A stretch of DNA of 64,000 bases, from assembly GCA_905478225.1 (NCBI GenBank), contig CAJQHR010000001.1, positions 62,001 to 126,000 of the forward strand, given 5' to 3'. This DNA is from an uncultured Crocinitomix sp. (lineage in GTDB: Bacteria; Bacteroidota; Bacteroidia; Flavobacteriales_D; Crocinitomicaceae). A model generated the notes under the pieces. It saw nothing but the letters and a program-made list of their open reading frames with translations, was not told the origin of the DNA and searched no databases. The translations under genes were made by a program, and so were the position numbers. This document shows positions 7,165-26,405 of this stretch, piece after piece; the first letter of the stretch is position 1, and each line of letters opens with the position of its first letter.

Positions 7165-8808
7165 TTAAAATGAATGAGTCATTGTAAAGCTTAAACCGTT
7201 TGTGGCTGGCACAGGTCTGCAAACTCCTCCTACGCAAACAATACCTGCACGTTGTTTCCCGTATGAAAATATAAAACGTGTTTGGTTATGAATGTAGCCA
7301 AATGAACCGAGCAGATAGTGCAGCTGCAAGGCCGGATCTGGATGACCGAAATTGTATTGGTCTTGTATCGCAAAAAACCATTTAGGCGAAATGGTATATT
7401 CTAATAATGCAGCACCCCAATTTCCTCGGTCCTTTTCTGTAAATAAGCCTTGTATCTCGCCTCTAATTGAATGTTTGCGCCCAATTCTATATTGTGCTTC
7501 TAAAACAAATATATCCGATTTAATATATCCCTTAGCGAGCAAGGTAACTGGATTTACAGTATTGTTAAAGATGAAATGGTAATAATGTGCACTCGCTTTC
7601 CATTTTTTACTAAACTTCTTAGAAAGATGTATGTTAAAATCGAAATTGTAAAGGCTGTCATTCAAATCAAATGGTTTCCCAATATATGAAATTCCATCTG
7701 CCGAAAAGTTAGTGCCAGTTTTATGGCGCATATGGTCTGTTGCAACTGACACATTCATATGTAATTTGGTGCCATACTTCCCGCCAAGTTTTGATTTCTT
7801 TTTGATCGTGTAAAAAACATCCATTTGAAAGGCGACTTCTCCTGCCGGATTTGCAGCATAAGGATAGAGTGTACCTGCTAGGTTATAGGTGTGATTATTT
7901 GTTGTAGCAGGTAAGAAATTCGTGGTGAGTTGATTTCCTAAAACAGTTTTATCCCCTCTAAATTGGAAATTATCAAATGAGCGAGCCGTTAAAATGATTC
8001 CTAACCCTTTTTGTGTATAGCCTAAATTAACTAGTGCACCATGGCCTGGGTTATATACAAATCCGTTTTGTAATGATGGATCATTTGTTTTATAGCCATA
8101 CTCAGCGCCAAAGGTGAATCGCTGATAACGCATGTCAATTCGTCCTGCATAGATGTTTACGTTTGGCGGAGTTGTGTCATTTACACTTTGATATCTGCTT
8201 ACGAAACTTCCACCAATTGTCACTTTCAATTTTGAATCCGAAAATCTCGGAATCAGTGTATTTAAGTTAATGTCGCAATCCAAACCTCTAATAATGCCTT
8301 TAGATTTTTCTATGACGCCATCTTTAAATTTAAAACGTTGTCGACCCATCAACCCTTTTAATTCAACTCCTTTCCGCGGAATAAATTTCACGCTTACTCC
8401 ATCAAATGAATTATCAATACCTAAGGCTCCATTTTCATAAGCGCGCAAGGCTATACCATTACCAAATTGTTCATAAAAATTACCCACTTTAATATTTAAT
8501 TGATCGCCTGCATATTCAGCAAATCGATAACCTATTCCTGTTCCATTATAAAAAACGGGATATCCTGCAATTGCAGGTAAATAGCTTTCAAAACGTACTC
8601 CTGCTCTAAATTTACCTACGGTAGCATTTATGTTCATCACGGTGTTCATGACTGCTTTTTCGGTAGGAGCGAAGGCCCCAATTAAGGTGTCCTCGTTTAG
8701 AACTTGCATGTTCGTTTCAAAATTCCCACTTACACTGCTGCGCAAATTGTTTTGTGCAGTAGCTGAAAACGTAGCGAGGGTTATAATTGCAAAGACGAGT
8801 TTTTTCAT
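7165..8808 (-). CDS. DUF6029 family secreted/outer-membrane protein (copy 1)
   Basis: 547 residues with an N-terminal signal peptide (MKKLVFAIITLATFSATAQ). The remainder is rich in alternating aromatic/polar beta strands typical of an outer-membrane barrel, and it ends in a Phe (SFTMTHSF), as barrel proteins often do. It belongs to the Bacteroidota family DUF6029, of unknown function; landmarks are the GNFYEQFG and SISPKWFF-type segments. A conserved Cys pair near the C-terminus (CVGGVCRPVPATNG) is shared with copy 2 at 9863-11515; the two are clear paralogues throughout. It lies 126 bases after an Omp28-like lipoprotein gene in the same direction and is the last gene of the cluster. Barrel topology is an inference from strand pattern. 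Confidence 0.85.
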   Translation of the reverse strand: MKKLVFAIITLATFSATAQNNLRSSVSGNFETNMQVLNEDTLIGAFAPTEKAVMNTVMNINATVGKFRAGVRFESYLPAIAGYPVFYNGTGIGYRFAEYAGDQLNIKVGNFYEQFGNGIALRAYENGALGIDNSFDGVSVKFIPRKGVELKGLMGRQRFKFKDGVIEKSKGIIRGLDCDINLNTLIPRFSDSKLKVTIGGSFVSRYQSVNDTTPPNVNIYAGRIDMRYQRFTFGAEYGYKTNDPSLQNGFVYNPGHGALVNLGYTQKGLGIILTARSFDNFQFRGDKTVLGNQLTTNFLPATTNNHTYNLAGTLYPYAANPAGEVAFQMDVFYTIKKKSKLGGKYGTKLHMNVSVATDHMRHKTGTNFSADGISYIGKPFDLNDSLYNFDFNIHLSKKFSKKWKASAHYYHFIFNNTVNPVTLLAKGYIKSDIFVLEAQYRIGRKHSIRGEIQGLFTEKDRGNWGAALLEYTISPKWFFAIQDQYNFGHPDPALQLHYLLGSFGYIHNQTRFIFSYGKQRAGIVCVGGVCRPVPATNGLSFTMTHSF

Positions 8809-8934
8809 TGTATCGAGTTGATTTCTACACTACAATGTAGCATTATATCACTAATGAATGACATTTACGATGATTAAAAAAAAGATAGAATTAGAGTCCT
8901 ATTTGCGCTGAATGTAGAATCAGCAGTGTCTTAA

Positions 8935-9852
8935 TTAAAACTCATGTTTGATCACTTGCTCAATTTCATAGGTTTCACGATTGAATACTAGAATTAAGAA
9001 GTGCATGTCTTCATTTGTGAATCCAGCTGGCATTTCATATGTAAATTCATTCGAAATTTTGGTACCCCCAAGTGTGTTTTCTGAAGCAATTCCACGCCCC
9101 CATGTTTCTTCATATACATTTCCAATATGAATATCATGATGCACATAATCTTCATCAGTTGAACTATCCGGTAATTTTTGAGGAGAAACGAAAGAATTTT
9201 CTATGGCATAAACTACAATATTATAAGTTCCTTCAATGTCATTAATAATATCAGTTTCCACGTGTAAAAACACGCCATCTGTTTCTGGGTAATAATTTGA
9301 TTTTGCTTGAATATTTATATCCAGTGTTGAAGCGAGAACTTCATCTGTTTTTTCTGACCAATCTACAGCGAATGAAAAGAATTGTCCTTCTTCAAAAGGA
9401 ACACGGTTAACATTTCCTCTTGGATTCCCACCAAAACCAACTCCCAAGTTAAAAAATTCAGAGGCCATTTCTAATCCCTGCGGATTTGTAAAATCTCTCG
9501 GAAAGTCTTCTGTTACCGCCTGAAATGATCCCGCTCCACCTGGTTCTGCAGATGCGTGAATTGTTGCAACAAATACACGCCCTGGCTGCGCATCTTCAAT
9601 TTCCTCAGCTATTGTAGCTGCCGGAGGACAAAACGGACATTGATGTCCTGTATAATCAGCAATAACTACATTTCTTAGTGTATTTGTGTTTTCGTCAAAT
9701 GTCGGATATTCATAGTCTATGAAATTACCTGGATACAAATTTGTATCCAAATCCGTAATAATCACATTTGGAAATTCTACTTTGTCGCATGCTGTCGTGA
9801 AAGCAACACCTGATATCATTATGAGACCTAAAAGCTTAATATAAATTTTCAT
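8935..9852 (-). CDS. Omp28-related lipoprotein with CxxC thioredoxin-like motif
   Basis: 305 residues. The N-terminus is a lipoprotein signal with the lipidated Cys at about residue 22 (AFTTAC). A thioredoxin-type active-site pair Cys72-Pro-Phe-Cys75 follows the strand NVVIADYTG, the characteristic start of the Omp28-related family. The protein is probably anchored in the outer membrane. The family name comes from a Porphyromonas outer-membrane protein; biochemical function is not established. The gene begins 10 bases after the DUF6029 copy 2 gene, so they are co-transcribed. A second Omp28-type protein with a T9SS tail is encoded at 12345-14210. Confidence 0.88.
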   Translation of the reverse strand: MKIYIKLLGLIMISGVAFTTACDKVEFPNVIITDLDTNLYPGNFIDYEYPTFDENTNTLRNVVIADYTGHQCPFCPPAATIAEEIEDAQPGRVFVATIHASAEPGGAGSFQAVTEDFPRDFTNPQGLEMASEFFNLGVGFGGNPRGNVNRVPFEEGQFFSFAVDWSEKTDEVLASTLDINIQAKSNYYPETDGVFLHVETDIINDIEGTYNIVVYAIENSFVSPQKLPDSSTDEDYVHHDIHIGNVYEETWGRGIASENTLGGTKISNEFTYEMPAGFTNEDMHFLILVFNRETYEIEQVIKHEF

Positions 9853-9862
9853 ATCAATAATG

Positions 9863-11515
9863 TTAAAATGCTTGAGTAAATGTGAATGTTAAACCATTCG
9901 TTGCAGGAACGGGTCTACAAACTCCCCCAACACAAAGTATTCCTTCTCTTTGTTTTCCATACATAAACATAAAGCGAGAATTATTGTGGGTATAACCAAA
10001 TGCTCCTAATAAATAATGTATGCGAAGGTCTTCATTCGGATGACCATAATTGTACTGATCCATCACGGTGAAAAACCATTTTGGAGAAATAGTATATTCT
10101 ATTACTGCAGTAGCCCAATTCCCTCTATCCTTTTTTGTAACTAAGGCTTGAAATTCAGCACGAATTGAATGTTTTCTACTAATCTTGTAAGAGACATCAA
10201 CAACAGCTATGTCTGAAGTGATATAGTGCTTGGCTAATTTTGTGACCTCATTTACATCATTGTTATAGATGAAATGATAATAATGAGCGCTCGCTTTCCA
10301 CTTCTTGTTAAACTTATGTTTGATGTGAAAGTTAAAATCAAAGTTGAAAATACTATCCGTCATAGCAAAAGGTTGTGCCAGATAAGAAATTCTATTCTTT
10401 TGCCAATCTGCACCTTCAGTATCACGTTTAAAGTCGGTCGCTAATGATACGTTTAAGTGTAAATATGTACCATATTTCCCTCCTAATTTAGATTTTTTTG
10501 GAATCTTATATAATACGTCCAATTGGTAAGCTACCTCTCCATTTAGATTTGTAGCATAGGGGTAAAGTGTTCCAGCTAAGTTATAAGTATGATTATTACT
10601 TGTGGCGGGTAAATAATTAATAAAGGCTTGATTGCCAATTACAGTCCGATCCGATCTAAATGTCATATTGTCGAGCGACTTGGCGGTTAAAATAATTCCT
10701 AAACCTTTTTGCGAATAGCCCATATTTACAATAGCACCGTGACCAGAATTATAAATCCAGTTATTTTGTTCGTTTGGATCATTATCCTTGTGAATATACT
10801 CAGCGTTTAAGTAAAAGCGTGAGTATTTCATGTCAATACGTCCACCATATGAACCAACGTTCTTAGGAACGATTAAGGTGTCATTGCTTGTGGCTTGATA
10901 ACGGCTAACTAAACTACCAGCAATTGATATTTTGAATTTAGAATCGCTGAACGCGGGAATGATTTGATTTAAGTTTAAACTTCCGTCTACACCCCTTACC
11001 AGTCCATCAGAATTTAAGCGTTGACCGTCAACAAAGTTTACACGTTGTCTACCAATAAACCCTTTCAAATCAACACCCCTAATTGGTGAAAAACGAATGC
11101 TGGCTCCTTCCATTGCATTGTCTAAGCCTAATGCACGTTCTTCATATGACCTAAAGATGAGCCCACTGCCAAATTGTTCGTAAAAATTACCAAGGGTAAC
11201 TGTAATTTTGTCACCAGCATATTGGAAATACTTATAAGGTAGTCCATTGCCCGAGTAAAAACCTGGGTATCCTGCTATCGAAGGGGAATAACTTTCAAAG
11301 CGCGCCCCAGCTCTAAATTTCCCAACGGTATAGTTGATATTCATGTATGAGTTGGCGACAACACGTTGGTCGGGAGCAGTAGCTCCAATTAATGTATCTG
11401 TGTTTAAATATTGAACGTTTGATTCAATATTTCCGGTTACATTTCCACCTTGCCCTAACTGTGCGAAAGAACAAAAAGAGGCGAAACCGAAGAATCCCAG
11501 GATGATTTTTTTCAT
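9863..11515 (-). CDS. DUF6029 family secreted/outer-membrane protein (copy 2)
   Basis: 550 residues, co-linear and closely similar to the 7165-8808 product: signal peptide, GNFYEQFGSGL, SKWKASAHYYHF-like segment, SPKWFF and the same CVGGVCRPVPATNG Cys pair just before a final aromatic residue. DUF6029 has no assigned function; a beta-rich outer-membrane protein is the most likely type. It sits between a TlpA-like thioredoxin gene (42 bases upstream) and an Omp28 lipoprotein gene (10 bases downstream), suggesting one transcription unit. The two copies probably arose by local duplication with an Omp28 gene between them. Confidence 0.85.
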   Translation of the reverse strand: MKKIILGFFGFASFCSFAQLGQGGNVTGNIESNVQYLNTDTLIGATAPDQRVVANSYMNINYTVGKFRAGARFESYSPSIAGYPGFYSGNGLPYKYFQYAGDKITVTLGNFYEQFGSGLIFRSYEERALGLDNAMEGASIRFSPIRGVDLKGFIGRQRVNFVDGQRLNSDGLVRGVDGSLNLNQIIPAFSDSKFKISIAGSLVSRYQATSNDTLIVPKNVGSYGGRIDMKYSRFYLNAEYIHKDNDPNEQNNWIYNSGHGAIVNMGYSQKGLGIILTAKSLDNMTFRSDRTVIGNQAFINYLPATSNNHTYNLAGTLYPYATNLNGEVAYQLDVLYKIPKKSKLGGKYGTYLHLNVSLATDFKRDTEGADWQKNRISYLAQPFAMTDSIFNFDFNFHIKHKFNKKWKASAHYYHFIYNNDVNEVTKLAKHYITSDIAVVDVSYKISRKHSIRAEFQALVTKKDRGNWATAVIEYTISPKWFFTVMDQYNYGHPNEDLRIHYLLGAFGYTHNNSRFMFMYGKQREGILCVGGVCRPVPATNGLTFTFTQAF

Positions 11516-11557
11516 TTAATTTGAATTAGACTAATAATAGGGGTGGGGGTGTGGCTT

Positions 11558-12095
11558 TTATTCCACTGCTTGCGTTTGTTTTTCGTGCAATTCTTTAACA
11601 ATGTCAAATAAGTCTTCTTCATCTCCAGGAACAAACCCTACGTGAGAATAAACGATTTTTCCTTCGCCATTGAGTACAAATGTCTGTGGCGGATAATTAA
11701 CGCCCATGGCTCTTTTTAAATCGCTATTTGAATCTAACCAGATTTCGTAATCCCAACTTTCAGCTTCAACCACAGGTTTAACCTTACTTTTATTACGCTC
11801 ATCATCAATTGATACTGCAACGAGTTTTACACCGGTGCTGTCCTGCAATTCCTCAAAATCATCCATTATTGTATTTAATTCCAATCGGCAAGGTTTACAC
11901 CATGTTGCCCAGAACGAAACGATTATTGGATTTCCACCATTCTCGAGGTCTGCCGAATTGATTTGATCTCCTTCTAAGTTCTCAAGCATTACAGATGGCA
12001 TTGTTTTACCGAGTCCTCCATCATCTGTATTTATAAATGATGATCCTCCAATTACTCCAAGAGCTAGTGCGAATAGTAAACTTATTTTTTTCATA
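11558..12095 (-). CDS. TlpA-like periplasmic thioredoxin-family protein
   Basis: A thioredoxin-fold protein of the TlpA/ResA type: the AhpC/TSA-Redoxin core carries FWATWCKPC (redox Cys66 and Cys69 from the preferred start) and the cis-proline region YPPQTF. The N-terminus MKKISLLFALALGVIGGSSF is a signal peptide or anchor, so it acts outside the cytoplasm. The frame extends 9 codons further to a TTG, but the ATG before KKISLL is the natural start because it begins the signal peptide. Likely role: reducing or isomerising disulfides of envelope proteins; the co-encoded Omp28 and DUF6029 proteins with Cys pairs are plausible partners, an inference from context. Confidence 0.88.
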
Positions 12096-12282
12096 GTTGT
12101 ATTTTTCCTTATTGAATTCAAATATCAGACCAAACTGATAGACAGGATCAAAAATAGCGATTTATTTCTCGCATAACAATACCTTAATTGAGTTATTGTT
12201 GATTTCCCAAGAACAATTAGGCTTTTTATTTGTACCCATTGCTTTTCGCCATTTGTAGACAATCCATCAAAGTTTAAGCCTC

Positions 12283-12331
12283 AAAAAAAAAGGTCTGATT
12301 CGCAGAAAGCGAAACAGACCCAAATTTTTTT
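12283..12331 (-). terminator. Bidirectional-type terminator after the T9SS Omp28 gene
   Basis: The arms GGTCTGATTCGC (12292-12303) and GCGAAACAGACC (12309-12320) pair with one mismatch around an AGAAA loop. A T tract follows on the minus strand (complement of 12283-12291), ending the gene at 12345-14210; the + strand also has a T tract at 12324-12331. Confidence 0.9.
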
Positions 12332-12344
12332 TATAATTCAGTTC

Positions 12345-14210
12345 TTACTGAATAGAAAGTTTTGCAGTTTGAACTGTATTGTTAACAACAGTTCTAACAG
12401 TGTACATTCCTGCTGAAAAAGCAGTAACATCTACTGAATAAATATAAGCACCAGCAGTTAAGTTCTGCGTGTTTTTGCTATAAACTAATTCGCCTAACGC
12501 ATTGTAAATTTCAACATTCACATCCGAAGTTTCGATTAGACTTACTTTAATATTTGTCAAATCAGTTGAAGGGTTTGGATAGACAGAAAGATTGAAATCC
12601 GCTTCATTTTCCTCAATTCCTGAAGCAGAAAGATTGCGTGTAATTCCAGCATTTAAAATCTCACCAGTTTCACCATCCACTAACATACCAATAAAATGTA
12701 ATTTAGTTAAATCCCAATCGCCTTTAGGAATGGTATAAGTATAACCTTCATAAGTGCTTGCAGCAATTGATGTTGGCAAAGAACCTGCCGTTCCTAAAAT
12801 TTCATCATCACCAAGTGCACGTGCAACATGGTCATAAACCATATCAGCAGCAGGAACAGGATCGGTTAAATCTTCGTAACCACCCATGTCACCAGCACCA
12901 CCACCAGAGTAGTAATTTGCTTGATTGTATCCAGAACCAGTTCCAGTTACTCCATCTTCAGTAATTACTGCGGCTAAACGGTAATCTCCCTCTAATGCAC
13001 CAACAAACCATGCGATAACTTTCACTTCAATATTGTCACCCATGTCAGCTGCTTCAACATAAATAGAAGCTGGAGGAATTTCAGTTGAACGTTCTTCATA
13101 CATTGCTGCGAAATCAGAAGGGTCTCCTGGGAGTACACGGTCAACTCCACCGCCTGGATAACCACCAGGTACATACGTTCCAATTCCAGCATCATAAGAA
13201 GCAACGGTCATTGGATCACCATTGTGCACAGCAATTCCAATCCATAAAGGTTCGCTTGCCATGTCATCCATTGCAACGGTTCCTCGTGGACACCATCCAC
13301 ACCATGTTCCAGTTTTCTCTTCACCTACAACATATTTTGTTGGAATTTCAGATACACAAGAAATGATGGCATTAATGCAATCATTCGTGGCATCTCCATC
13401 ATCAGCTAAGTCAACACAAATATCCATATCGTATGACCCACCGCTAACAGCAATTAATGCAGTTGGGTGTGTAAAGTTATAAACTTCACCTGGTTCAATT
13501 GTTTCAGTAATTGTTTCGTTGTGAGATGTACCATCATTCCAATCTAAATCGAATGAAGTAATCGTGTTTGCTCCATTGTTTTTAACAGATCCTGTAATGT
13601 TAATAGTCCCTTCTTCAACAACCGGTGCTGTAGTCACAGACAACATTTTTAGGTCCCAATCTAATAACGTACGAACAGAAACGTCGTCAATATTTAAACG
13701 AAATTCGTCAGACACATTATGATGTCTGAATGCGATATATACGTCAGATTCACCTGAAAGTGCTGTAACGTCTAATGAACGTGATACATACTCTCCGCCA
13801 GTTCCGCCAACAACTTCATTAAATGAATAAGGAGATGTCATTAAATCTCCAATGGCTCCACTTGTGCCAGCATATGCCGTGTACTCTTCACCAGTCCAAT
13901 CCGGATCTTGTGCTTTAGTTACCCATTGAAATGCTACGGTACCTGTTGCTGCAGATAAATCAAAAGGTCCAGCAACCATCCAATTGTCAGGGGTTAAGAT
14001 TCCTGCTCCGCCGTCCCAAGATGCGGATGAAGCAACATTTCCATGTCCATCTCCTGCACCATAATCGGCTATTGCCCAATCAAACCCATCTCCATCTGAA
14101 TCCGTCAAAGTCCAGCTTCCTATTCCTCCTGAAAAGTCATCCTCGAAATAGGTTTGCGAGTAAGCTCCAGAAGTGATTAAAGCCAACATTGGAATTATTA
14201 TTATTTTCAT
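12345..14210 (-). CDS. Omp28-related protein with cleaved-adhesin/choice-of-anchor-J domain and T9SS type A tail
   Basis: 621 residues: signal peptide (to about 18); a domain starting FEDDFSGGIGSWTLTDSDGD that matches the cleaved-adhesin/choice-of-anchor-J lectin-like fold (about 20-185); a middle beta domain; an Omp28-type thioredoxin-like region with GTWCGWCPRG (Cys304 and Cys307); and a C-terminal type A sorting domain beginning SVYPNPSTD and ending with the usual Gly-x-Tyr strand. It should cross the outer membrane through the T9SS translocon and be attached or released at the surface. It is separated from the TlpA operon by a strong terminator, so it is transcribed alone, although functionally it belongs with that cluster. 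Confidence 0.92.
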   Translation of the reverse strand: MKIIIIPMLALITSGAYSQTYFEDDFSGGIGSWTLTDSDGDGFDWAIADYGAGDGHGNVASSASWDGGAGILTPDNWMVAGPFDLSAATGTVAFQWVTKAQDPDWTGEEYTAYAGTSGAIGDLMTSPYSFNEVVGGTGGEYVSRSLDVTALSGESDVYIAFRHHNVSDEFRLNIDDVSVRTLLDWDLKMLSVTTAPVVEEGTINITGSVKNNGANTITSFDLDWNDGTSHNETITETIEPGEVYNFTHPTALIAVSGGSYDMDICVDLADDGDATNDCINAIISCVSEIPTKYVVGEEKTGTWCGWCPRGTVAMDDMASEPLWIGIAVHNGDPMTVASYDAGIGTYVPGGYPGGGVDRVLPGDPSDFAAMYEERSTEIPPASIYVEAADMGDNIEVKVIAWFVGALEGDYRLAAVITEDGVTGTGSGYNQANYYSGGGAGDMGGYEDLTDPVPAADMVYDHVARALGDDEILGTAGSLPTSIAASTYEGYTYTIPKGDWDLTKLHFIGMLVDGETGEILNAGITRNLSASGIEENEADFNLSVYPNPSTDLTNIKVSLIETSDVNVEIYNALGELVYSKNTQNLTAGAYIYSVDVTAFSAGMYTVRTVVNNTVQTAKLSIQ

Positions 14211-14380: not shown

Positions 14381-14388
14381 TATATTTG
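14381..14388 (+). promoter_or_regulatory. Bacteroidota -7 element TATATTTG
   Basis: TATATTTG matches the TAnnTTTG consensus. A TTG lies 24 bases upstream (14354-14356), one base longer than the usual spacing range. It is only 18 bases before the second ATG of the downstream gene, which argues for that later start. Confidence 0.55.
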
Positions 14389-14406
14389 TTATTATAAATG
14401 AAGGTT

Positions 14407-15138
14407 ATGAAGAAAATTTTTACTTATTTAGGGTTATTTACAATTACTTTGGGTGCTAACGCTCAAGGAATTGAGATCTATTTGCCTGATGGGGATGTGG
14501 TTGTTTCTGGAACAACGATTGAGTTAAATTCGGAAGAGGAGAACATGCATCAAGAGTTTGATGTAGAAAATGTTTCTGGCGCTACACTTAACTTAAGAAT
14601 TGAGCGTATTAAAATTACCGAATTAGAAGGAACTGAAGATTATTTGTGTTGGGGTGCAAATCCTGAAACAGGTGCTTGCTATTCTGCAGGAGCAGTGTCT
14701 CCAGAAAACCCTTTCATTACTCCAGACGCTAGTGATTTAGATGATGGGAATAGAGGCTGGTTAGCAACTTACCACGTAACTAACGGATTTTCTGGTTGTG
14801 CACAATATCGTTATTATGTAATTGATGATTCGGATGTTCGAAGAGATTCTGTTGATGTATTTTATTGTTCTACAGTGAGCATTAAAGAAGATATTAAAGT
14901 GAGTGTTTCAGTTTATCCTAATCCTGCTTCTGACTTTGTTAAGGTACAAATGGAAAACGAGCACAACAATGTTAATTTCACTTTGTATAACATTTTAGGC
15001 GAGGCTGTAGTTATTACTGCTTTATCAGCGGGGACGAATGAAGTAGCTGTTAATAAATTGCCGAATGGTGTTTACTTTTATTCTATTTTGAAAGAAGGAA
15101 ATATCTTGGAAACAAAAAAGCTTATAGTGAGACACTAA
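14407..15138 (+). CDS. Secreted protein with T9SS type A sorting domain
   Basis: About 243 residues. The signal peptide MKKIFTYLGLFTITLGANAQ is followed by a beta-sandwich-like region of unknown family (about 20-155) with several Cys residues, then a C-terminal type A sorting domain (VSVYPNPASD, then GVYFYSI). It is therefore a T9SS cargo. Two ATGs are possible: 14398 adds Met-Lys-Val, but the -7 element at 14381-14388 would make that transcript nearly leaderless, so 14407 is preferred. The role of the N-terminal domain is unknown. It is divergent from the Omp28/T9SS gene and shares a terminator with the convergent sirtuin gene. Confidence 0.85.
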   Translation: MKKIFTYLGLFTITLGANAQGIEIYLPDGDVVVSGTTIELNSEEENMHQEFDVENVSGATLNLRIERIKITELEGTEDYLCWGANPETGACYSAGAVSPENPFITPDASDLDDGNRGWLATYHVTNGFSGCAQYRYYVIDDSDVRRDSVDVFYCSTVSIKEDIKVSVSVYPNPASDFVKVQMENEHNNVNFTLYNILGEAVVITALSAGTNEVAVNKLPNGVYFYSILKEGNILETKKLIVRH

Positions 15139-18998: not shown

Positions 18999-21900
18999 AT
19001 GAAAAGAATTTTTTTATTAGTATTTACAATCAGTTTAGCACTGAATCTCTTTGCAAATAAAGAGAACATAGGTGACGGTGTGCTCACCTACGAAACTGCG
19101 ACGGATTCACCTAAGGTGGATTTGCCTTTCCCCATTTTTGATTATCAGGATTATACAGACCGCAAAAGGTCTCCGCTTGACTTAAGAGACCCAGAAAATC
19201 TGAATACGGATATTGTATACAATCCTGAAACGGGGAATTATGAGATTGTTCAGAAAATTGGAGACCAATATTACAGGTATCCAACTTCAATGACGCAAGC
19301 CGAGTACATAGAATATCAAAGACAAAAAGCGTTAGAAGACGGATGGCTAGAAAAAGTTGATGGAACAAATGACAATGCTCGCGGTGTAATTCCACCATTA
19401 AAAGTTGGTGGAGAAGCCTTTGATGTGATTTTTGGAGGAGATGAAATTAATATCCGTCCGCAAGGTTCGGCTGAACTTTCTTTTGGAGTAAATGTTTCTC
19501 GTTATGATAACCCTGCATTACCTGAACGCCAAAGAAGGGTTGCAACGTTTGACTTTCAACAACAAATTCAGTTGAATATGGTTGGGCAAATTGGTGATAA
19601 ATTAAAATTAACCATTAGCCAAAATACGGAAGCAACATTCAACTTTCAAAATCAGGTTAAAATTGAGTATACAGGTTATGAGGATGAAATTATACAAAAA
19701 ATTCAGGCAGGTAACGTAAGTTTACCGTTGAATACTACCCTTATTCAAGGTTCTCAGAGTTTATTCGGTATTCGAACTGATTTAAAATTTGGGGCTTTAA
19801 CCGTTCAAACTATTTTATCACAACAAAAAGGAAAGCGCCAAGAAATTAATGTTGCTGGGGGTGCTCAAGTTCAAGATTATGAAGTGCGAGTAGATAATTA
19901 CGAGGCAAATAAACACTACTTTTTAAACTATTATCACCGCGAGCATTATGACGAAGGAATGTCTACTATGCCGATCGTTAATTCTCAAGTAAACATTACT
20001 AAAATTGAGGTTTGGGTGACCAACCGAATTAACCGTGTTGAAGATACACGTAATGTAATTGCATTTACGGATTTAGGTGAAGGAAAAACTGAGAATTTAG
20101 AAGGAGGCCCGCTTCCTATCGGTGATGAACTACCGCGAAATGGCGCCAATAATTTATACGCCGAGTTAGAATCTAACCCTGATGTACGTGGATTTTCATC
20201 TGCAGTTAGTGCCCTTGCAACTTATAGTGGAAGTCCTGGTCCGTTTGCACAATCTGTTCATTATGAAAAAGTGGAGAACGCTCGAAGATTAAGTGAACAA
20301 GAATATACGTATAATGCTCAGCTTGGATTTGTGTCTTTAAAATCGCCTTTAAATCAAGATGAGGTGCTCGGTATTGCTTATCAGTACACCATTAATGGTA
20401 GAACTTTCCAAGTAGGTGAGTTTTCAACTGATGTTCCGGTTGCGGAGGGTAATAAAAGTGCTTTAATCTTGAAGCTATTAAAACCAACAATTATCAATCC
20501 TAAAAATAAAACGTGGGATTTGATGATGAAAAATGTTTATTCAATTGGTGCTTATCAAGTAAGCCCTGGTGACTTCACATTTGATGTTTGGTATAATAAC
20601 CCGGTTACAAGTGTAAACGTAAATTATTTGCCTTACGAAGGAGTAGACGATATTCTTTTAATGCAGCAGCTAGACTTGGATCGATTAAACTTGAATCAAG
20701 ACTTATATGCGGATGGTCGATTTGATTTTGTAGCCATTCAATATGACGGTAATAGAGCTGTGAATGGAGGTACTGTTGATCCAAGGACAGGTCGTGTCTA
20801 TTTCACAACTATTGAGCCATTTGGTCAAACCTTAAGGGGTAAATTAGAAAATGTTCCAGATCCATTGGCGCCAATCCAAATCAACGGGATTGTATTTGAC
20901 GAGTTGTATGACTCAACTAAAACTGCTGCCCAACAAATTCCGAGTAAAAACAGGTTTAGTATTAAAGGAAGTTATAAATCTTCCGTAAGTTCAGAAATTT
21001 CATTGAATTCATTAAACATTCCAGAAGGAAGTGTTACGGTGTTAGCCGGTGGAGCCAAATTAACAGAAGGTGTTGACTATACGGTTGACTATAACTTAGG
21101 CCGTGTAAAAATCCTAAATCAAGGAATTTTAGAATCGCAAACACCAATTAAAGTACAATTAGAGAGTAATTCATTGTTTGGTTTCCAATCAAAATCTCTC
21201 GTTGGGGCACACTTTAATTACGAAATTAATAAGGACTTTAACGTGGGGGCTACGTTCATGAATTTGACCGAAAAGCCGTTAACGCAAAAGGTAAATATTG
21301 GTGATGAACCAATTAGTAACTCTGTTGTGGGTACGGATATTAGTTATAGAACGGATGCACCTTTTTTAACAAAACTGGTCGATTTCTTGCCCGTAATTAG
21401 TACCAAAGAGAAATCAACAATTACCGCTTATGGCGAGTTTGCATACCTTATTCCAGGCACACAACGTGCCATTAGTAAAGAAGGAATTTCTTATATAGAT
21501 GGTTTTGAAGGAAGTCAGAGCGCAATTGATATTAAACAATTTCAAACATGGCGCTTGGCCTCTATTCCTCAAGGACAAAACAGTTTATTCCCAGAAGCGA
21601 ATATTAAAACAGGAACAGAAGCCGGATTTAATCGTGCGCACCTTTCATGGTATCAAGTTGATCCAACAACATTTTACCAAAACTCAGTCACTACGCCAGA
21701 TAATATTAAAGACAATGCGACAATTTTAGAAGACTCTCGTCAACATCAATTAGAGCAAAATGATCTATTCCCACAATCAAATCCACCACAAGGAACTCTA
21801 AATAATATTCCAGTGCTTGATTTGGCTTATTACCCGCAGGAAAGAGGGCCGTATAACTATGATACTACAAATGCAGATGTTTTGCCAGATGGTACATTTT

Positions 21901-24900
21901 CAAATCCTGAGGATCGTTGGGCAGGTATTATGCGTGCATTAACAACTACTAATTTTGAAACGGCAAACGTACAATTTATTCAATTCTGGCTCCTTGATCC
22001 ATTTAATGATGACGCTACCGATTCAGGTACAGTAAATTTATCGGGTGGTGACTTGTATTTCAACCTTGGAAATATTTCAGAGGATGTTTTACCAGATTCT
22101 AGAAAAAGTTTTGAAAATGGATTACCAACTGGAGGAACTGTTGAAGATCCAGGTGATTACGATACAACTGATTGGTCGGTGGTTTCAAATGAGCAAGTCA
22201 TAGTAAATGCCTTTGATAATAACTCATCTTCAAGAATTTATCAAGATGTTGGGCTAGATGGGTTCGGTGATGACGGCGAAGTTGACAATTTTTCAGAATT
22301 CATGAGCTGGGTAAGCGCAAGTGCATTAGATCCAGCCGCAAAAGGAAAATTATTAAATGATCCTTCTTCAGATAATTACAATTATTATAGAGATGATGAT
22401 TCTGATGCGGCAAATCATGACATTGTAAGAAGGTATAAATATTTTAATGGGACTGAAGGGAACTCAGCTACACCTGAAATTTCGGATACTGTAAATGCGG
22501 ATGGTTACCCAACAAGGGGAACTCAAACTCCAGATATTGAGGATTTAAATCAAGATAATAACTTAAGCGAATCAGAAAGTTATTTCCAATATCGCGTTAG
22601 TTTGCGCCCTGGTGATTTACAAGTGGGTCAAAATTTTGTTACCAATAAACAAGAGGTTAAAATAAATGACGTAACAGGTAAAACTGAGAATTGGTATCAA
22701 TTTAAAATTCCAATTGAAAATCCGGAGTCAATTATTAATGGCATTTCAGATTTCAGATCAATCCGTTTCATGCGAATGTTCATGAATAATTTTGATCATG
22801 AGGTCGTGCTTAGATTTGCTAAACTTGAACTTATTAGAGGTGAGTGGAGAAAGTATTTGTTTAATTTGAACGAACCTGGAGAGGTTATTCAGGATGATCC
22901 AAATTCGACCGAATTTAACTTGGCAGCCGTTAACTTAGAAGAAAATGAAGGTAAATTTCCAGTGGCTTATGTAATTCCTCCAGGAATTATTCGTGAGCAA
23001 GATAATGGCTCAATCAATTTAAGACAATTGAATGAGCAATCTTTATCAATGGAAATATGCGGATTGAAAGACGGAGAGGCGCGAGCTTCTTATAAAAACG
23101 TTCAATTTGATGTCAGGTCCTACAAAAAACTAAAAATGTTCGTACATGCCGAACAACAATTTAGGACAGGCTGGGCAACAGATAATTTAAAGGATGATCA
23201 ATTGACGGTATTCATAAGGTTAGGAACCGATTTTGAAGACAATTATTATGAATTTGAGATGCCGTTAAAAGTCACTACTTATGATCCAATTAAAGGATTA
23301 ACATCTATTGACACTGATGCTGAAGCTCGAATTTGGCCGGAAGAGAATAATCTCGAAGTCGTGTTTGATTCTTTGATTAACCTAAAGATCAGAAGAAATG
23401 ACCTCGAAGTATCATCCACTATTGAATACATTCAGAATTTATTACCAGACGAATATGGTGTGGTACGCCGAATAAAAGTAAAAGGTAATCCGAACTTACA
23501 AGGAATGAAAACCATCATGATTGGTGTGCGAAATCCAAGTAAAGATAGCAATCACCCTTGGCAGTTAAATGAGGACGGTTTGAATAAATGTGCTGAGGTA
23601 TGGGTGAATGAGTTGCGATTAACAGACTTTGATCAAAAAGGTGGTTGGGCTTCAACAGCTCGTGTCAATGTTCAATTGGCTGATTTTGCAAGTGTAAACA
23701 TGTCTGGAAACTACTCAACGCCCGGATGGGGAAGTATAGAGAAGAAAGTAAGTGAAAGACAACGTGACACGCAAATGGGCTTTGATGTATCCTCTAATAT
23801 GGAGTTAGGTCAATTCCTTGGTCGAAAGGTCAATGTTCAAGTTCCTTTCTACATAGGTTATTCGGCGAGTATTATTGAGCCGCAGTTCGACCTCTTGGCG
23901 CCGGATGTAATGCTGTCAAAATATGATAAAGAAGATAGGAAGGAAAAAGCGTTCTTATCGCGAGACGCCACAATTAGGCGATCCTTTAACTTTACTAATG
24001 TAAGGCGAGAAAGAACCGCCGGGAAAGAAGTCCACTTCTGGGATATCGAAAACTGGTCTGCCAGTTACTCATACAATGAGTTAGAGATACGTGATATTAA
24101 CACGAAATATGATATTACAAGGACCTACCGTGGTGGATTAACGTATAACTATTCTAAAAAGCCGTTACTAATTGAACCGTTTAAGAAAAGTAAATTCTTG
24201 AAAAAATCGAAATGGTTTGGTTTAATAAAGGACTTTAATTTTTACGTCGGACCTAAATCTCTCGGATTTAATACGGAGCTTTCAAGAATGTATAACGAGC
24301 GTGAAAACAGGAACGCATTGGATACGAACTTCCAATTTAGACCAACCTATTTGAAAAATTTCAATTGGACACGTAATTATGAGCTGAAGTATGATATATC
24401 GAAAAACATTAAGTTTTCATTCTCGGCTTCAAATCGATCAATAATTCGCGAACCGGAAGGAATAATTGACGGTAATGTCTCTGCCGATCAAAATTTGGAA
24501 ACCTATAATAATTATCAATTGTTCAAATCAAGTATTCGAAGTGCCTTAGAGCCGTTTGATGGCGATTCTGTTAAATTTGGAGGCTATGGCTTGAATTATG
24601 GGCATAATTATGATATCTCCTATAAAATTCCTTTTGATAAATTACCGCTCACTAACTGGATTACAGCGAATGTGAAAATGCGAAGCAGTTATGATTGGAT
24701 GCGTGCGCCTCTGGCCTTTCCAGGCATTGGTAATACAGTGCAAAATGCAAGAAATTTCACTGTGAACGGTCAGGTAAATATGGTTACGCTTTATAATAAA
24801 ATCGGTCTTTTACGAAAAATCAATAATGACGGTAAAGGCGGTCGTGGTGGACGAAATGCGCCACAGCAGAACCAGAAAAACGGAGACGATAAGAAAAAAG

Positions 24901-26405
24901 ATAAAGAGAAGGACAAAGAAGGTGAAGATGGAAAAGATGGTGAAAAGGAAAAGAAGAAACGTGACGGCTTGCATCCAATCGTTAAAACAACTGGTCGTTT
25001 GATTATGTCTTTCAGAAATTTATCCTTTTCATATGCAGAAACGGACGGAATTATGCTTCCCGGAGTAGGCGGGGATATTAGTGTGTTGGGAATGGATAAT
25101 TTTGGATCGCCGGGTCTTGCTTTTGTGGCAGGTCAGCAGAACAGAGATTTATTGGGTAGACCAACTGATGCTTGGGGTAATTATGATTCATTTGCGCCAT
25201 TCGCAGCCAGCAACGGTTGGTTAGTTGGCAATTCGAATTTAAATATCTTGCATACAAATACGCATACCCAGTCTATGAATGCTCGAGCAACATTTGAACC
25301 GTTTAAGGATTTACGAATTAATGTGACAATTGACCGTAAGTTGACTGATAACGAGAATAGTTATTACCGTTTTAACGATACACTTCCTCCAACAGTTGAG
25401 GATATTGAATTCGGAGATTGGGAATACCAAAATAGGATTAATGGAGGTTCAATTAGTTTCACAACCATTACGTGGAAAACAGCTTTTACTAAATTAGACT
25501 CGAGTTATGTCTCTGATGTATTTGAAGATTTGAGAGGCTACAGACAAACTGTTTCAGCACAACTTGGCGAGGACAATGGTACTACTGAAGGTTCAGATGG
25601 TTATTATAGTGGATATGGAGAAAATCAACAAGATGTATTAATTGGATCTTTCTTGGCGGCATATACCGGTCAAGGAACTGGGACTAAATTCTTTGATGTT
25701 TTCAAAGCAATTCCTTTACCAAATTGGGACATTAGGTATGACGGTTTAGCTAAAATGGATTTTATGAAAGACTATGTGAGAAACTTCTCGTTGACACATG
25801 CCTATCGTTCAAACATTTCAGTTTCAAACTATCAAACGAACCTAGCTGCTTTTGACCAGTTTGGAGTACCGCAATTGGATGCCTCAAATAACTTGATCCC
25901 GAGCAGACAAATTCAAAGTGTAACTATTACGGAACAGTTTGCACCGTTCTTAGGAGTAGATGCTACTTGGATTGTTGGTGAAAATGGATTAATTACCAAG
26001 TTCGAATACAAACGTGATCGCTCGCTCGCTTTAAGTGTTACCAACCTTCAAATTACGGAGATGCGTGGTAAGGAATGGGTAATTGGTACAGGTTATAAAT
26101 TCTCAGGTGTTAAACTACCTTTCCAGATATTTGGCAAGACTCCAGAAAGTGATTTGAACCTTCGATTTGATTTATCTATCAGAAGCAATATTGCTTTGAA
26201 TAGAAACATCATTGAGAACAGTCAACAAATAACTTCCGGTCAAGATATGTACTCAATTAAATCAAGAATTGATTACAATATAGGACCTAACTTAAACGTG
26301 GCAGTTTACTTTGATCGCGTAGTAAACAAACCACAATTATCTACCGCCTTTAACACTGCCAATACAAGTGCAGGATTGGCGTTAAGGTTTAACTTGGCAC
26401 AATAA
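18999..26405 (+). CDS. sprA: T9SS outer-membrane translocon SprA (Sov)
   Basis: At 2468 residues this is the giant beta-barrel that forms the type IX secretion pore and is needed for gliding in motile relatives. It begins with a signal peptide (MKRIFLLVFTISLALNLFA). The early region VGGEAFDVIFGGDEINIRPQ, and the repeat of the same plan of TISQNTEATFNFQNQ-type strands, are typical of SprA. The chain continues as dense amphipathic strands and ends with LALRFNLAQ. Around residues 1945-1988 a Lys/Glu/Asp/Gly-rich unstructured stretch interrupts the barrel. It follows maeB and ruvA. In several relatives gcvH comes next; here a GNAT gene is found instead. The five T9SS cargo genes in the window depend on this pore. 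Confidence 0.96.
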   Translation: MKRIFLLVFTISLALNLFANKENIGDGVLTYETATDSPKVDLPFPIFDYQDYTDRKRSPLDLRDPENLNTDIVYNPETGNYEIVQKIGDQYYRYPTSMTQAEYIEYQRQKALEDGWLEKVDGTNDNARGVIPPLKVGGEAFDVIFGGDEINIRPQGSAELSFGVNVSRYDNPALPERQRRVATFDFQQQIQLNMVGQIGDKLKLTISQNTEATFNFQNQVKIEYTGYEDEIIQKIQAGNVSLPLNTTLIQGSQSLFGIRTDLKFGALTVQTILSQQKGKRQEINVAGGAQVQDYEVRVDNYEANKHYFLNYYHREHYDEGMSTMPIVNSQVNITKIEVWVTNRINRVEDTRNVIAFTDLGEGKTENLEGGPLPIGDELPRNGANNLYAELESNPDVRGFSSAVSALATYSGSPGPFAQSVHYEKVENARRLSEQEYTYNAQLGFVSLKSPLNQDEVLGIAYQYTINGRTFQVGEFSTDVPVAEGNKSALILKLLKPTIINPKNKTWDLMMKNVYSIGAYQVSPGDFTFDVWYNNPVTSVNVNYLPYEGVDDILLMQQLDLDRLNLNQDLYADGRFDFVAIQYDGNRAVNGGTVDPRTGRVYFTTIEPFGQTLRGKLENVPDPLAPIQINGIVFDELYDSTKTAAQQIPSKNRFSIKGSYKSSVSSEISLNSLNIPEGSVTVLAGGAKLTEGVDYTVDYNLGRVKILNQGILESQTPIKVQLESNSLFGFQSKSLVGAHFNYEINKDFNVGATFMNLTEKPLTQKVNIGDEPISNSVVGTDISYRTDAPFLTKLVDFLPVISTKEKSTITAYGEFAYLIPGTQRAISKEGISYIDGFEGSQSAIDIKQFQTWRLASIPQGQNSLFPEANIKTGTEAGFNRAHLSWYQVDPTTFYQNSVTTPDNIKDNATILEDSRQHQLEQNDLFPQSNPPQGTLNNIPVLDLAYYPQERGPYNYDTTNADVLPDGTFSNPEDRWAGIMRALTTTNFETANVQFIQFWLLDPFNDDATDSGTVNLSGGDLYFNLGNISEDVLPDSRKSFENGLPTGGTVEDPGDYDTTDWSVVSNEQVIVNAFDNNSSSRIYQDVGLDGFGDDGEVDNFSEFMSWVSASALDPAAKGKLLNDPSSDNYNYYRDDDSDAANHDIVRRYKYFNGTEGNSATPEISDTVNADGYPTRGTQTPDIEDLNQDNNLSESESYFQYRVSLRPGDLQVGQNFVTNKQEVKINDVTGKTENWYQFKIPIENPESIINGISDFRSIRFMRMFMNNFDHEVVLRFAKLELIRGEWRKYLFNLNEPGEVIQDDPNSTEFNLAAVNLEENEGKFPVAYVIPPGIIREQDNGSINLRQLNEQSLSMEICGLKDGEARASYKNVQFDVRSYKKLKMFVHAEQQFRTGWATDNLKDDQLTVFIRLGTDFEDNYYEFEMPLKVTTYDPIKGLTSIDTDAEARIWPEENNLEVVFDSLINLKIRRNDLEVSSTIEYIQNLLPDEYGVVRRIKVKGNPNLQGMKTIMIGVRNPSKDSNHPWQLNEDGLNKCAEVWVNELRLTDFDQKGGWASTARVNVQLADFASVNMSGNYSTPGWGSIEKKVSERQRDTQMGFDVSSNMELGQFLGRKVNVQVPFYIGYSASIIEPQFDLLAPDVMLSKYDKEDRKEKAFLSRDATIRRSFNFTNVRRERTAGKEVHFWDIENWSASYSYNELEIRDINTKYDITRTYRGGLTYNYSKKPLLIEPFKKSKFLKKSKWFGLIKDFNFYVGPKSLGFNTELSRMYNERENRNALDTNFQFRPTYLKNFNWTRNYELKYDISKNIKFSFSASNRSIIREPEGIIDGNVSADQNLETYNNYQLFKSSIRSALEPFDGDSVKFGGYGLNYGHNYDISYKIPFDKLPLTNWITANVKMRSSYDWMRAPLAFPGIGNTVQNARNFTVNGQVNMVTLYNKIGLLRKINNDGKGGRGGRNAPQQNQKNGDDKKKDKEKDKEGEDGKDGEKEKKKRDGLHPIVKTTGRLIMSFRNLSFSYAETDGIMLPGVGGDISVLGMDNFGSPGLAFVAGQQNRDLLGRPTDAWGNYDSFAPFAASNGWLVGNSNLNILHTNTHTQSMNARATFEPFKDLRINVTIDRKLTDNENSYYRFNDTLPPTVEDIEFGDWEYQNRINGGSISFTTITWKTAFTKLDSSYVSDVFEDLRGYRQTVSAQLGEDNGTTEGSDGYYSGYGENQQDVLIGSFLAAYTGQGTGTKFFDVFKAIPLPNWDIRYDGLAKMDFMKDYVRNFSLTHAYRSNISVSNYQTNLAAFDQFGVPQLDASNNLIPSRQIQSVTITEQFAPFLGVDATWIVGENGLITKFEYKRDRSLALSVTNLQITEMRGKEWVIGTGYKFSGVKLPFQIFGKTPESDLNLRFDLSIRSNIALNRNIIENSQQITSGQDMYSIKSRIDYNIGPNLNVAVYFDRVVNKPQLSTAFNTANTSAGLALRFNLAQ

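Follow-up and report, generated by a model that had tools for sequence, protein, structure and literature searches.

A conserved gene unit of TlpA, a DUF6029 barrel and Omp28 next to a probable PorA relative in an uncultured Crocinitomix: a possible envelope thiol-disulfide system

The stretch of DNA analysed here, referred to as the window, comprises 64,000 nucleotides from an uncultured Crocinitomix sp. (Bacteroidota, Crocinitomicaceae; GenBank assembly GCA_905478225.1, contig CAJQHR010000001.1, positions 62,001 to 126,000), and our subject is a cluster of envelope genes within it that is centered on a protein of the DUF6029 family. The original prediction, made from the bare sequence, had described five minus-strand genes at 7165-14210, encoding two DUF6029 proteins and three thioredoxin-like proteins with a CxxC motif, and had raised the possibility that thiol electrons are passed from the periplasm to the outer membrane and on to an exported cargo. 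The five genes are located at these coordinates, the gaps between TlpA and DUF6029 (42 bases) and between DUF6029 and the Omp28 lipoprotein (10 bases) are as described, and the motifs CKPC, CPFC and CGWC as well as CVGGVC in both DUF6029 copies are present. Searches against Pfam agreed with the names DUF6029, Omp28 (for the lipoprotein), AhpC-TSA/Redoxin and Por_Secre_tail, but not with the assignment of the product of 621 amino acids (aa) to Omp28, which scored 23.2 bits at a cut-off of 34.9. Likewise, the five genes are real as a cluster, but the conserved neighbourhood extends beyond 7165-14210 to a plus-strand gene at 14398-15138. The features, in window coordinates and with T9SS standing for type IX secretion system, are the following.

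7165-8808, minus: second DUF6029 copy, 547 aa (Pfam DUF6029, 560.5 bits), with CVGGVC at 7219-7236
8935-9852, minus: Omp28 thioredoxin-like lipoprotein, 305 aa, with lipobox Cys22 followed by DKVE and CPFC at 9628-9639
9863-11515, minus: DUF6029 barrel, main copy, 550 aa (Pfam 588.2 bits; AlphaFold 2 model)
9917-9934, minus: CVGGVC hairpin of the main DUF6029 copy, with the invariant pair Cys528 and Cys533
11558-12121, minus: TlpA of the DUF6029-linked subfamily, 187 aa from a TTG start (AhpC-TSA/Redoxin), with CKPC at 11888-11899
12280-12346, minus: hairpin with U-run resembling an intrinsic terminator, in the interval between the 621-aa gene and TlpA (-21.8 kcal/mol, z -4.99)
12345-14210, minus: T9SS-exported choice-of-anchor/Omp28-like protein, 621 aa, accessory, with CGWC at 13290-13301 and a Por_Secre_tail
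14398-15138, plus: probable PorA relative, 246 aa, with signal peptide, immunoglobulin-like domain (by homology) and T9SS C-terminal domain (Por_Secre_tail, 54.5 bits)
14647-14679, plus: Cys pair of the PorA-like domain (LCWGANPETGACY), both Cys invariant among 23 chosen members

DUF6029 was found in 52 of the 60 genomes of the window's family and in 80 of 296 genomes of a Bacteroidota sample, and in none of 14 controls; several of the best named matches are from Crocinitomicaceae. For a comparison of gene neighbourhoods, 120 of them were fetched, 50 from the window's family and 70 from other Bacteroidota (69 genomes), giving 121 loci together with the window; the family genome G028 (DUF6029 split over two contigs), eight phylum genomes of family f23 and G241 were left out. 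Linkage was counted by a six-frame profile search, which recovered TlpA genes that a simple gene caller had overlooked; the cut-offs are distances and do not describe gene order, and the better-placed copy was taken where a locus has two. In all 51 family loci, TlpA lies at most 700 bases upstream and Omp28 at most 700 bases downstream of DUF6029 on the same strand. As the window's own genome contains 16 AhpC-TSA and 5 Omp28 matches in total, this linkage is far beyond chance. In the other loci TlpA is close to DUF6029 in 60/70 (at most 700 bases on the same strand or at most 900 bases if divergent; 5 divergent, 1 fusion), and a stricter subfamily profile identified a TlpA scoring above 100 bits within 6 kb in 62/70; Omp28, searched with its own profile, directly follows DUF6029 in 39/70. 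A second, named set of 80 loci, which partly overlaps the first, yielded TlpA in 75, Omp28 in 75 and the PorA-like gene in 59 by the same linkage search. In another family, 37 of 117 genomes are DUF6029-positive, and TlpA is adjacent in 26 of the 29 loci examined (9 on the same strand, 16 divergent, 1 fusion). The gene following DUF6029 on the same strand encodes a CxxC protein in 101/121 loci as judged by the plain CxxC pattern, and crude patterns assign a lipobox to 70 of these proteins, a T9SS tail to 12 and neither to 19. The co-occurrence on which the original prediction had staked its case thus holds, since DUF6029 is mostly accompanied by TlpA and, in the window's family, always by Omp28.

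Some loci display variations of this arrangement. In family f23 (L169, L171-L180), TlpA mostly overlaps DUF6029 by 4 bases, other CxxC thioredoxin-like proteins, either lipoproteins or T9SS-tailed, take the place of Omp28 after DUF6029, and no PorA-like gene was found in these loci. Two full DUF6029 matches occur in 3/5 genomes of the window's genus, and the second copy in the window is a duplication seen within the genus. DsbD directly follows DUF6029 in one of 201 loci.

Both DUF6029 copies of the window are full-length matches to PF19494 (588.2 and 560.5 bits, cut-off 27). A pair of cysteines in the arrangement C-x4-C, located 22 and 17 residues from the C-terminus, was identified in this analysis and is not part of the Pfam definition of the family. 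It occurs in 122 of the 123 DUF6029 proteins longer than 450 aa, the exception (L135) being a broken frame and a 372-aa protein (L136) being left uncounted; in the named set it is found in 79/80, the missing one (L214) being cut by a contig end, and in 29/29 loci of the other family. Among 89 aligned DUF6029 proteins with identities to the first one down to 13%, five glycines and these two cysteines are the only invariant residues. Conservation of the pair is therefore not restricted to the two paralogs in which it had first been noticed. Structural modeling of the main copy with AlphaFold (predicted local distance difference test, pLDDT, 93.2; predicted template modeling score 0.87) yielded a barrel of about 24 strands, as counted from the strand list, in which the Cys pair resides in a small hairpin (525-529/532-536) that links the final two strands. 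Since both termini of such a barrel are periplasmic, the loop of this hairpin would be predicted to face the outside. Among the structural matches the FimD usher ranks first (Z 17.9 over 370 residues, 4.3 Å), tied with an OccK porin (Z 17.3) as well as with PapC (Z 17.1), and many porins follow; AlgE (Z 14.9) is also listed. These matches indicate a large barrel and not a function. Matches of the DUF6029 profile to PDB sequences were stretches within RecA fusion chains that did not pass on their own and were judged spurious. The pattern C-x-G-G-x-C matches 6 of 2724 non-DUF6029 proteins, three of which look unrelated, and the resemblance between the barrel hairpin, a protein with two Omp28-like halves (L131) and two PorA-like proteins (L235, L244) was considered too thin to be used. 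With its partner set, its predicted fold and a candidate active site that can be tested, DUF6029, a family of unknown function, becomes accessible to experiment.

The TlpA protein of the window matches the TlpA/ResA/DsbE family with a WCxPC motif and resembles ResA, StoA and DsbE. Its translation probably begins at an ATG (12094) instead of the TTG. Residues W74, C75, P77, C78 and P145 are invariant across 20 linked TlpA members; no lipobox was seen in the window protein, and a lipobox-like pattern occurs in one of 101 linked TlpA proteins. A profile built from the 20 DUF6029-linked proteins was applied to 36 genomes, chosen as 12 DUF6029-positive ones without an adjacent TlpA in the gene table, 12 positive ones with it and 12 negative ones. 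It scored at least 135 bits in 24/24 positive genomes, of which 7 had contributed to the profile and 17 had not, and at most 91.5 bits in 12/12 negative ones, a contrast that may be partly phylogenetic because all DUF6029-negative genomes stem from one class. Contrasts of this kind also occur within genera (G268 with 212 bits vs G071 with 68 and G153 with 80; G315 with 207 bits vs G080 and G126 with 82 each). In four of the 12 positive genomes first scored as lacking an adjacent TlpA (G226, G202, G171, G288), TlpA does adjoin DUF6029, and in G274 both genes are located at contig ends and may be adjacent; this genome was not counted as split, because contig ends may reflect an assembly break. 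The TlpA genes of G270, G254 and G345 adjoin a PorA-like gene, on a contig other than that of DUF6029, and in the latter two genomes DUF6029 keeps its Omp28.

Natural fusions of TlpA to DUF6029 occur in two genomes of one genus. In one of these proteins (L118) the match to Redoxin extends to residue 152 and that to DUF6029 begins at residue 158, so that, to judge from the domain boundaries, TlpA in these species should be positioned at the periplasmic opening of the barrel or inside it. A candidate electron donor is also present, as the window's own genome has one DsbD_TM match. This DsbD (L273, 7115-9733) is long, with 872 aa; DsbD_TM spans residues 391-602, a thioredoxin-like domain forms the C-terminal part, and for the N-terminal half there was no Pfam match at E 0.001.

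The Omp28 lipoprotein matches PF11551 with 50.7 bits (cut-off 34.9), and its CPFC part shows weak similarity to thioredoxins at the sequence level (best E 0.01) and to the selenoprotein model NF045500 (E 0.0018); with 86.5 bits it stays below the 150-bit cut-off of NF033782. The protein of 621 aa, which the original prediction had cast as the exported cargo, begins with a cleaved-adhesin/choice-of-anchor domain. The strong hairpin with U-run divides its gene from TlpA, and the gene is therefore probably a separate transcription unit. A gene like it is present in the same slot in 15/51 family loci by label, and a 480-540 aa gene, unclassified, takes this slot in L074, L103, L106 and L110. Being located behind a terminator and labelled in 15/51 family loci, the T9SS Omp28 protein was discarded as a core cargo; it is a lineage-specific add-on, and the PorA-like protein encoded on the other strand is the more widely conserved exported neighbour. 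Three more Omp28-domain proteins of the own genome (L262, L263, L264) have a T9SS-tailed look and keep their CxxC (CGWC, CGWC and CPPC), so this genome, by its gene content, may encode several exported thioredoxin-like proteins. An Omp28-related protein is required for trypsin degradation by Paraprevotella clara, according to passages of PMC9477747, and by analogy with this case it might be speculated that Omp28 proteins, once exported, play a part in dealing with targets rich in disulfides.

The gene at 14398-15138 belongs to a family, delimited by an iterated profile search started from it, that is present anywhere within the fetched stretch in 81/121 loci. In 78/121 loci a member is located at -4 to +1 genes from DUF6029 (84 genes), and of these 84 neighbours, 81 contain a C-x(2-12)-C pair; one of the other three has a longer spacing, and two are second copies that lost one or both Cys. 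The gene is oriented opposite to DUF6029 in 72/87 cases and in the same direction in 15. Within 6 kb of DUF6029 it was found in 50/51 family loci and in 28/70 others. A profile of the window protein and 22 relatives (A5) matches PDB entry 6kjk, the N-terminal domain of PorA, with E 4.4e-4 as the only convincing PDB match, and the two cysteines of the profile align to CFGQC of 6kjk; a profile of 13 members from other families (A8) likewise matches 6kjk (E 6.9e-4). Because of this profile match via relatives, together with a length and a tail equal to those of PorA, we consider the product a probable relative of PorA. In a genome survey in which 12 candidates were scored per genome, the PorA-like profile was found in 40/80 DUF6029-positive and 8/216 negative genomes (p 1.9e-19, ignoring phylogeny), a contrast to which the profile itself contributes, having been derived from neighbours of DUF6029. 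SprA, taken as a T9SS marker, was found in 79/80 and 148/216 of these genomes, respectively (p 6.6e-10, again ignoring phylogeny). The own genome has three PorA-like members by profile A5 and also encodes a PorX-like protein (Response_reg and PglZ).

A number of further observations concern this gene family and the T9SS. In the window, the T9SS translocon gene SprA/Sov is located at 18999-26405 (plus), a few genes away from the module, and in genome G103 SprA lies about 10 kb from DUF6029 on one contig. The sole DUF6029-positive genome of the 80 without an SprA match (G288, locus L131) has a linked TlpA and no PorA match, and its protein downstream of DUF6029 consists of two Omp28-like halves with a CAGGQC segment. 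The other two PorA-like genes of the own genome form a tandem pair, and at a distance of about 2.5 kb there is an Omp28 gene with CGWC whose product is T9SS-exported (L270, contig C41, 5925-7432 and 9952-11046); neither DUF6029 nor a linked TlpA was found in this stretch. Locus L142 encodes a PorA-like protein of 495 aa that contains three repeats of C-aromatic-x-x-C, and beside it a second member of 478 aa.

The facts on PorA cited here come from Porphyromonas gingivalis. PorA (PG_2172/PGN_0123) is a T9SS-tailed surface protein of 246 aa whose surface signal is relayed to PorXY-SigP; deletion of porA lowers SigP and T9SS components, which is rescued by changes in PorY, and PorA is still at the surface in mutants of the T9SS translocon (PMC7712824). 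It is associated with PorV and Sov (PMC8754138), and PG2172 binds PorV (PMC5562754). The locus number next to PorA, PG2173, belongs to an Omp28 lipoprotein (PMC9722745), and PG_2174 appears as uncharacterised in a table of vesicle proteins (PMC4335976). Among PDB entries, the window TlpA is matched best by 2m72, a thioredoxin-like protein listed as uncharacterised (E 2.3e-43). 2m72 is probably PG_2175 of P. gingivalis, and PG_2174 is presumably a DUF6029 protein. With PorA as PG2172, Omp28 as PG2173, the uncharacterised PG_2174 and 2m72 as the probable PG_2175, our guess would be that P. gingivalis carries the same four genes in a row. The main text of PMC7712824 does not contain the words disulfide, Omp28 or operon, and neither the relay of the PorA signal nor its translocon-independent surfacing is explained in the passages on PorA considered here. 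No literature linking PorA or DUF6029 with TlpA was found in titles, abstracts and passages, which is a weak form of absence, and so far as this scope reaches, the connection of DUF6029, TlpA and Omp28 with a PorA-like protein is new.

Taken as a whole, it might be hypothesized that these genes form one envelope thiol-disulfide system with the PorA-like surface protein as its client, a tentative reading, though the likeliest of those considered, to which we assign a probability of roughly 0.4. A dedicated periplasmic TlpA, probably kept reduced by the DsbD of the genome, would act where the DUF6029 barrel opens inward, and a redox-active Cys hairpin in the last, outward loop of the barrel would receive from TlpA. 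Omp28, as a thioredoxin-like lipoprotein on the outer face, would end a chain leading from DsbD via TlpA and the barrel hairpin to Omp28, and this chain would govern the state in which the PorA-like protein keeps its two cysteines, and hence the surface display or activity of that protein. Thiol chemistry may then be the means by which cells process a PorA-type surface signal across the outer membrane. The reducing direction is suggested by a TlpA of the ResA/DsbE type in combination with DsbD, and the outer position of Omp28 by a lipobox followed by charged residues as well as by the T9SS-tailed CxxC proteins that occupy its slot in 12 loci. The split genomes, where TlpA stays with the PorA-like gene and, in two of three, Omp28 with DUF6029, fit a periplasmic TlpA step and an outer-membrane step of DUF6029 and Omp28. 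With respect to the relay to an exported cargo proposed originally, a redox module is well supported, as tests of both linkage and the Cys pair failed to refute it, but an electron relay is only possible and the cargo then envisaged is lineage-specific.

Apart from the possible share of phylogeny in the TlpA contrast, several observations weigh against this reading. CVGGVC could be no more than a structural disulfide. The gene after DUF6029 lacks a CxxC in 14/121 loci and is on the other strand in 6/121, TlpA stands apart from both DUF6029 and the PorA match in G218, G167, G186 and G222, and in the split genome G270 DUF6029 has not kept its Omp28. No PorA-like gene is found within 6 kb in 42/70 non-family loci, and only 40 of the 80 DUF6029-positive genomes have a match to the PorA-like profile, absences that are soft given the 12 candidates scored per genome. 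The window protein alone (phmmer to E 10) gave T9SS-tail and chance matches only, without 6kjk, which was likewise missed by profile A7, built from ten members of that family. In a model of the fusion protein, built on a mixed alignment, residues 183-314 have a pLDDT below 50, the start of the barrel is unresolved and one helix runs across the junction, so that the model is uninformative on the placement of TlpA.

The alternative that survives best confines the thiol chemistry to maturation: TlpA and Omp28 would form or correct the disulfide of the barrel during assembly, and the barrel's own role would be unrelated to thiols. Dsb enzymes act likewise on the disulfide of LptD, and the invariant Cys pair and a TlpA that is linked to the barrel gene and in one genus forms a fusion with it are what such a role would predict; it would, however, leave unexplained why the PorA-like gene stays beside TlpA in the three genomes with DUF6029 elsewhere and why T9SS-tailed CxxC partners occur in 12 loci, and we regard it as somewhat unlikely. 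That DUF6029 might itself export the PorA-like protein, with TlpA holding its Cys state in the periplasm and Omp28 receiving it, would account for the T9SS-independent surface PorA of P. gingivalis and for the ushers FimD and PapC at the head of the structural list (FimD with Z 17.9 over 370 residues at 4.3 Å). Yet the OccK porin is tied with them (Z 17.3), and an equal number of strands may by itself account for the usher match, PorA is in addition a binding partner of Sov-PorV (passages of PMC8754138), the tail of the PorA-like protein is a T9SS signal, and many DUF6029 genomes are without a recognised PorA, all of which makes a translocator quite unlikely. Linkage by itself is no proof of shared function and disulfides in outer loops can be structural; it might thus be argued that CVGGVC is a structural staple and that the gene order merely groups ordinary envelope genes, but the gene fusion, the co-occurrence of the TlpA subfamily and the CxxC partners render this explanation hardly probable. 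A porin for polysaccharide export, as proposed for Wzi-like barrels near genes for outer-membrane polysaccharide export (OPX), could invoke AlgE (Z 14.9) and the similarity to DUF6029 that HHpred detects for many of 28 plug-less Wzi homologs (passages of PMC9603273, the one paper met with that mentions DUF6029 by name), and is very improbable given the thioredoxin-like partner set, unexpected for such a porin, and the outcome of clustering, by which any third gene family is confined to at most 25/121 loci, where no OPX profile search was made.

Returning to the thiol-disulfide system with a PorA-like client, a more far-reaching and unlikely version would be a thiol circuit of the outer membrane, in which TlpA in or under the barrel passes to the hairpin at the outer rim and from there to Omp28, and the PorA-like protein, as sensor or client, reports surface conditions to PorXY-SigP by its thiol state or by export through the same barrel. 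If true, this circuit would correspond to DsbD at the level of the outer membrane and would supply the link that is missing between PorA at the surface and the kinase of the inner membrane. A thiol relay across the outer membrane, if real, would be a redox conduit of this membrane for which we know of no precedent.

Among described systems, that of PorA and PorXY-SigP comes closest in its components: the window gene has the same length of 246 aa, a T9SS tail and a family profile whose Cys pair aligns to 6kjk, an Omp28 lipoprotein has the locus number next to PorA (PG2173, passages of PMC9722745), and a PorX-like gene is present in the own genome. It differs in that the match is modest and through relatives only, and in that the literature on PorA, within the scope given above, draws no connection to TlpA, Omp28 or DUF6029. 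The pathways of DsbD/CcdA with TlpA, ResA or CcmG share a TlpA with WCxPC, the DsbD_TM match in the genome and, in one genome, a DsbD adjoining the unit. Known pathways of this type end in the periplasm, whereas the partners here would be an outer-membrane barrel and a lipoprotein. To the Omp28 family (PF11551, NF033782) and the selenoproteins of NF045500 the lipoprotein is linked by its Pfam match, an N-terminal CxxC and the lipobox, but it remains below the cut-off of NF033782 (86.5 of 150 bits). The likeness to the MtrCAB conduit is one of plan only (periplasmic redox protein, barrel, surface lipoprotein), with thiols in place of haems; 6r2q_B, a chain of the Mtr complex, is among the Foldseek matches, and MtrB-type barrels, 6r2q_B included, are not among the best 50 structural matches listed, which is no evidence against kinship with MtrB. 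The FimD/PapC ushers resemble DUF6029 in the overall barrel and strand number, but identity is 10-12%, OccK porins score equally, and the DUF6029 model is a single barrel after the signal peptide, without the usher plug and further domains.

No tRNAs or RNA families were detected within the window at gathering cut-offs. The motif TAnnTTTG is present 5' of two genes, namely TlpA (motif at 12149-12156, minus) and the PorA-like gene (motif at 14381-14388, plus), and its 84 occurrences in the window compare to 84.2 expected, hence without enrichment. Records titled Polynucleobacter, Sphingomonadales, Chryseobacterium gleum or Chitinophaga pinensis (L197, L213, L214, L217, L219, L227, L240, L254) contain DUF6029 genes that are 42-48% identical to those of the window, and these titles look like those of mislabelled bins.

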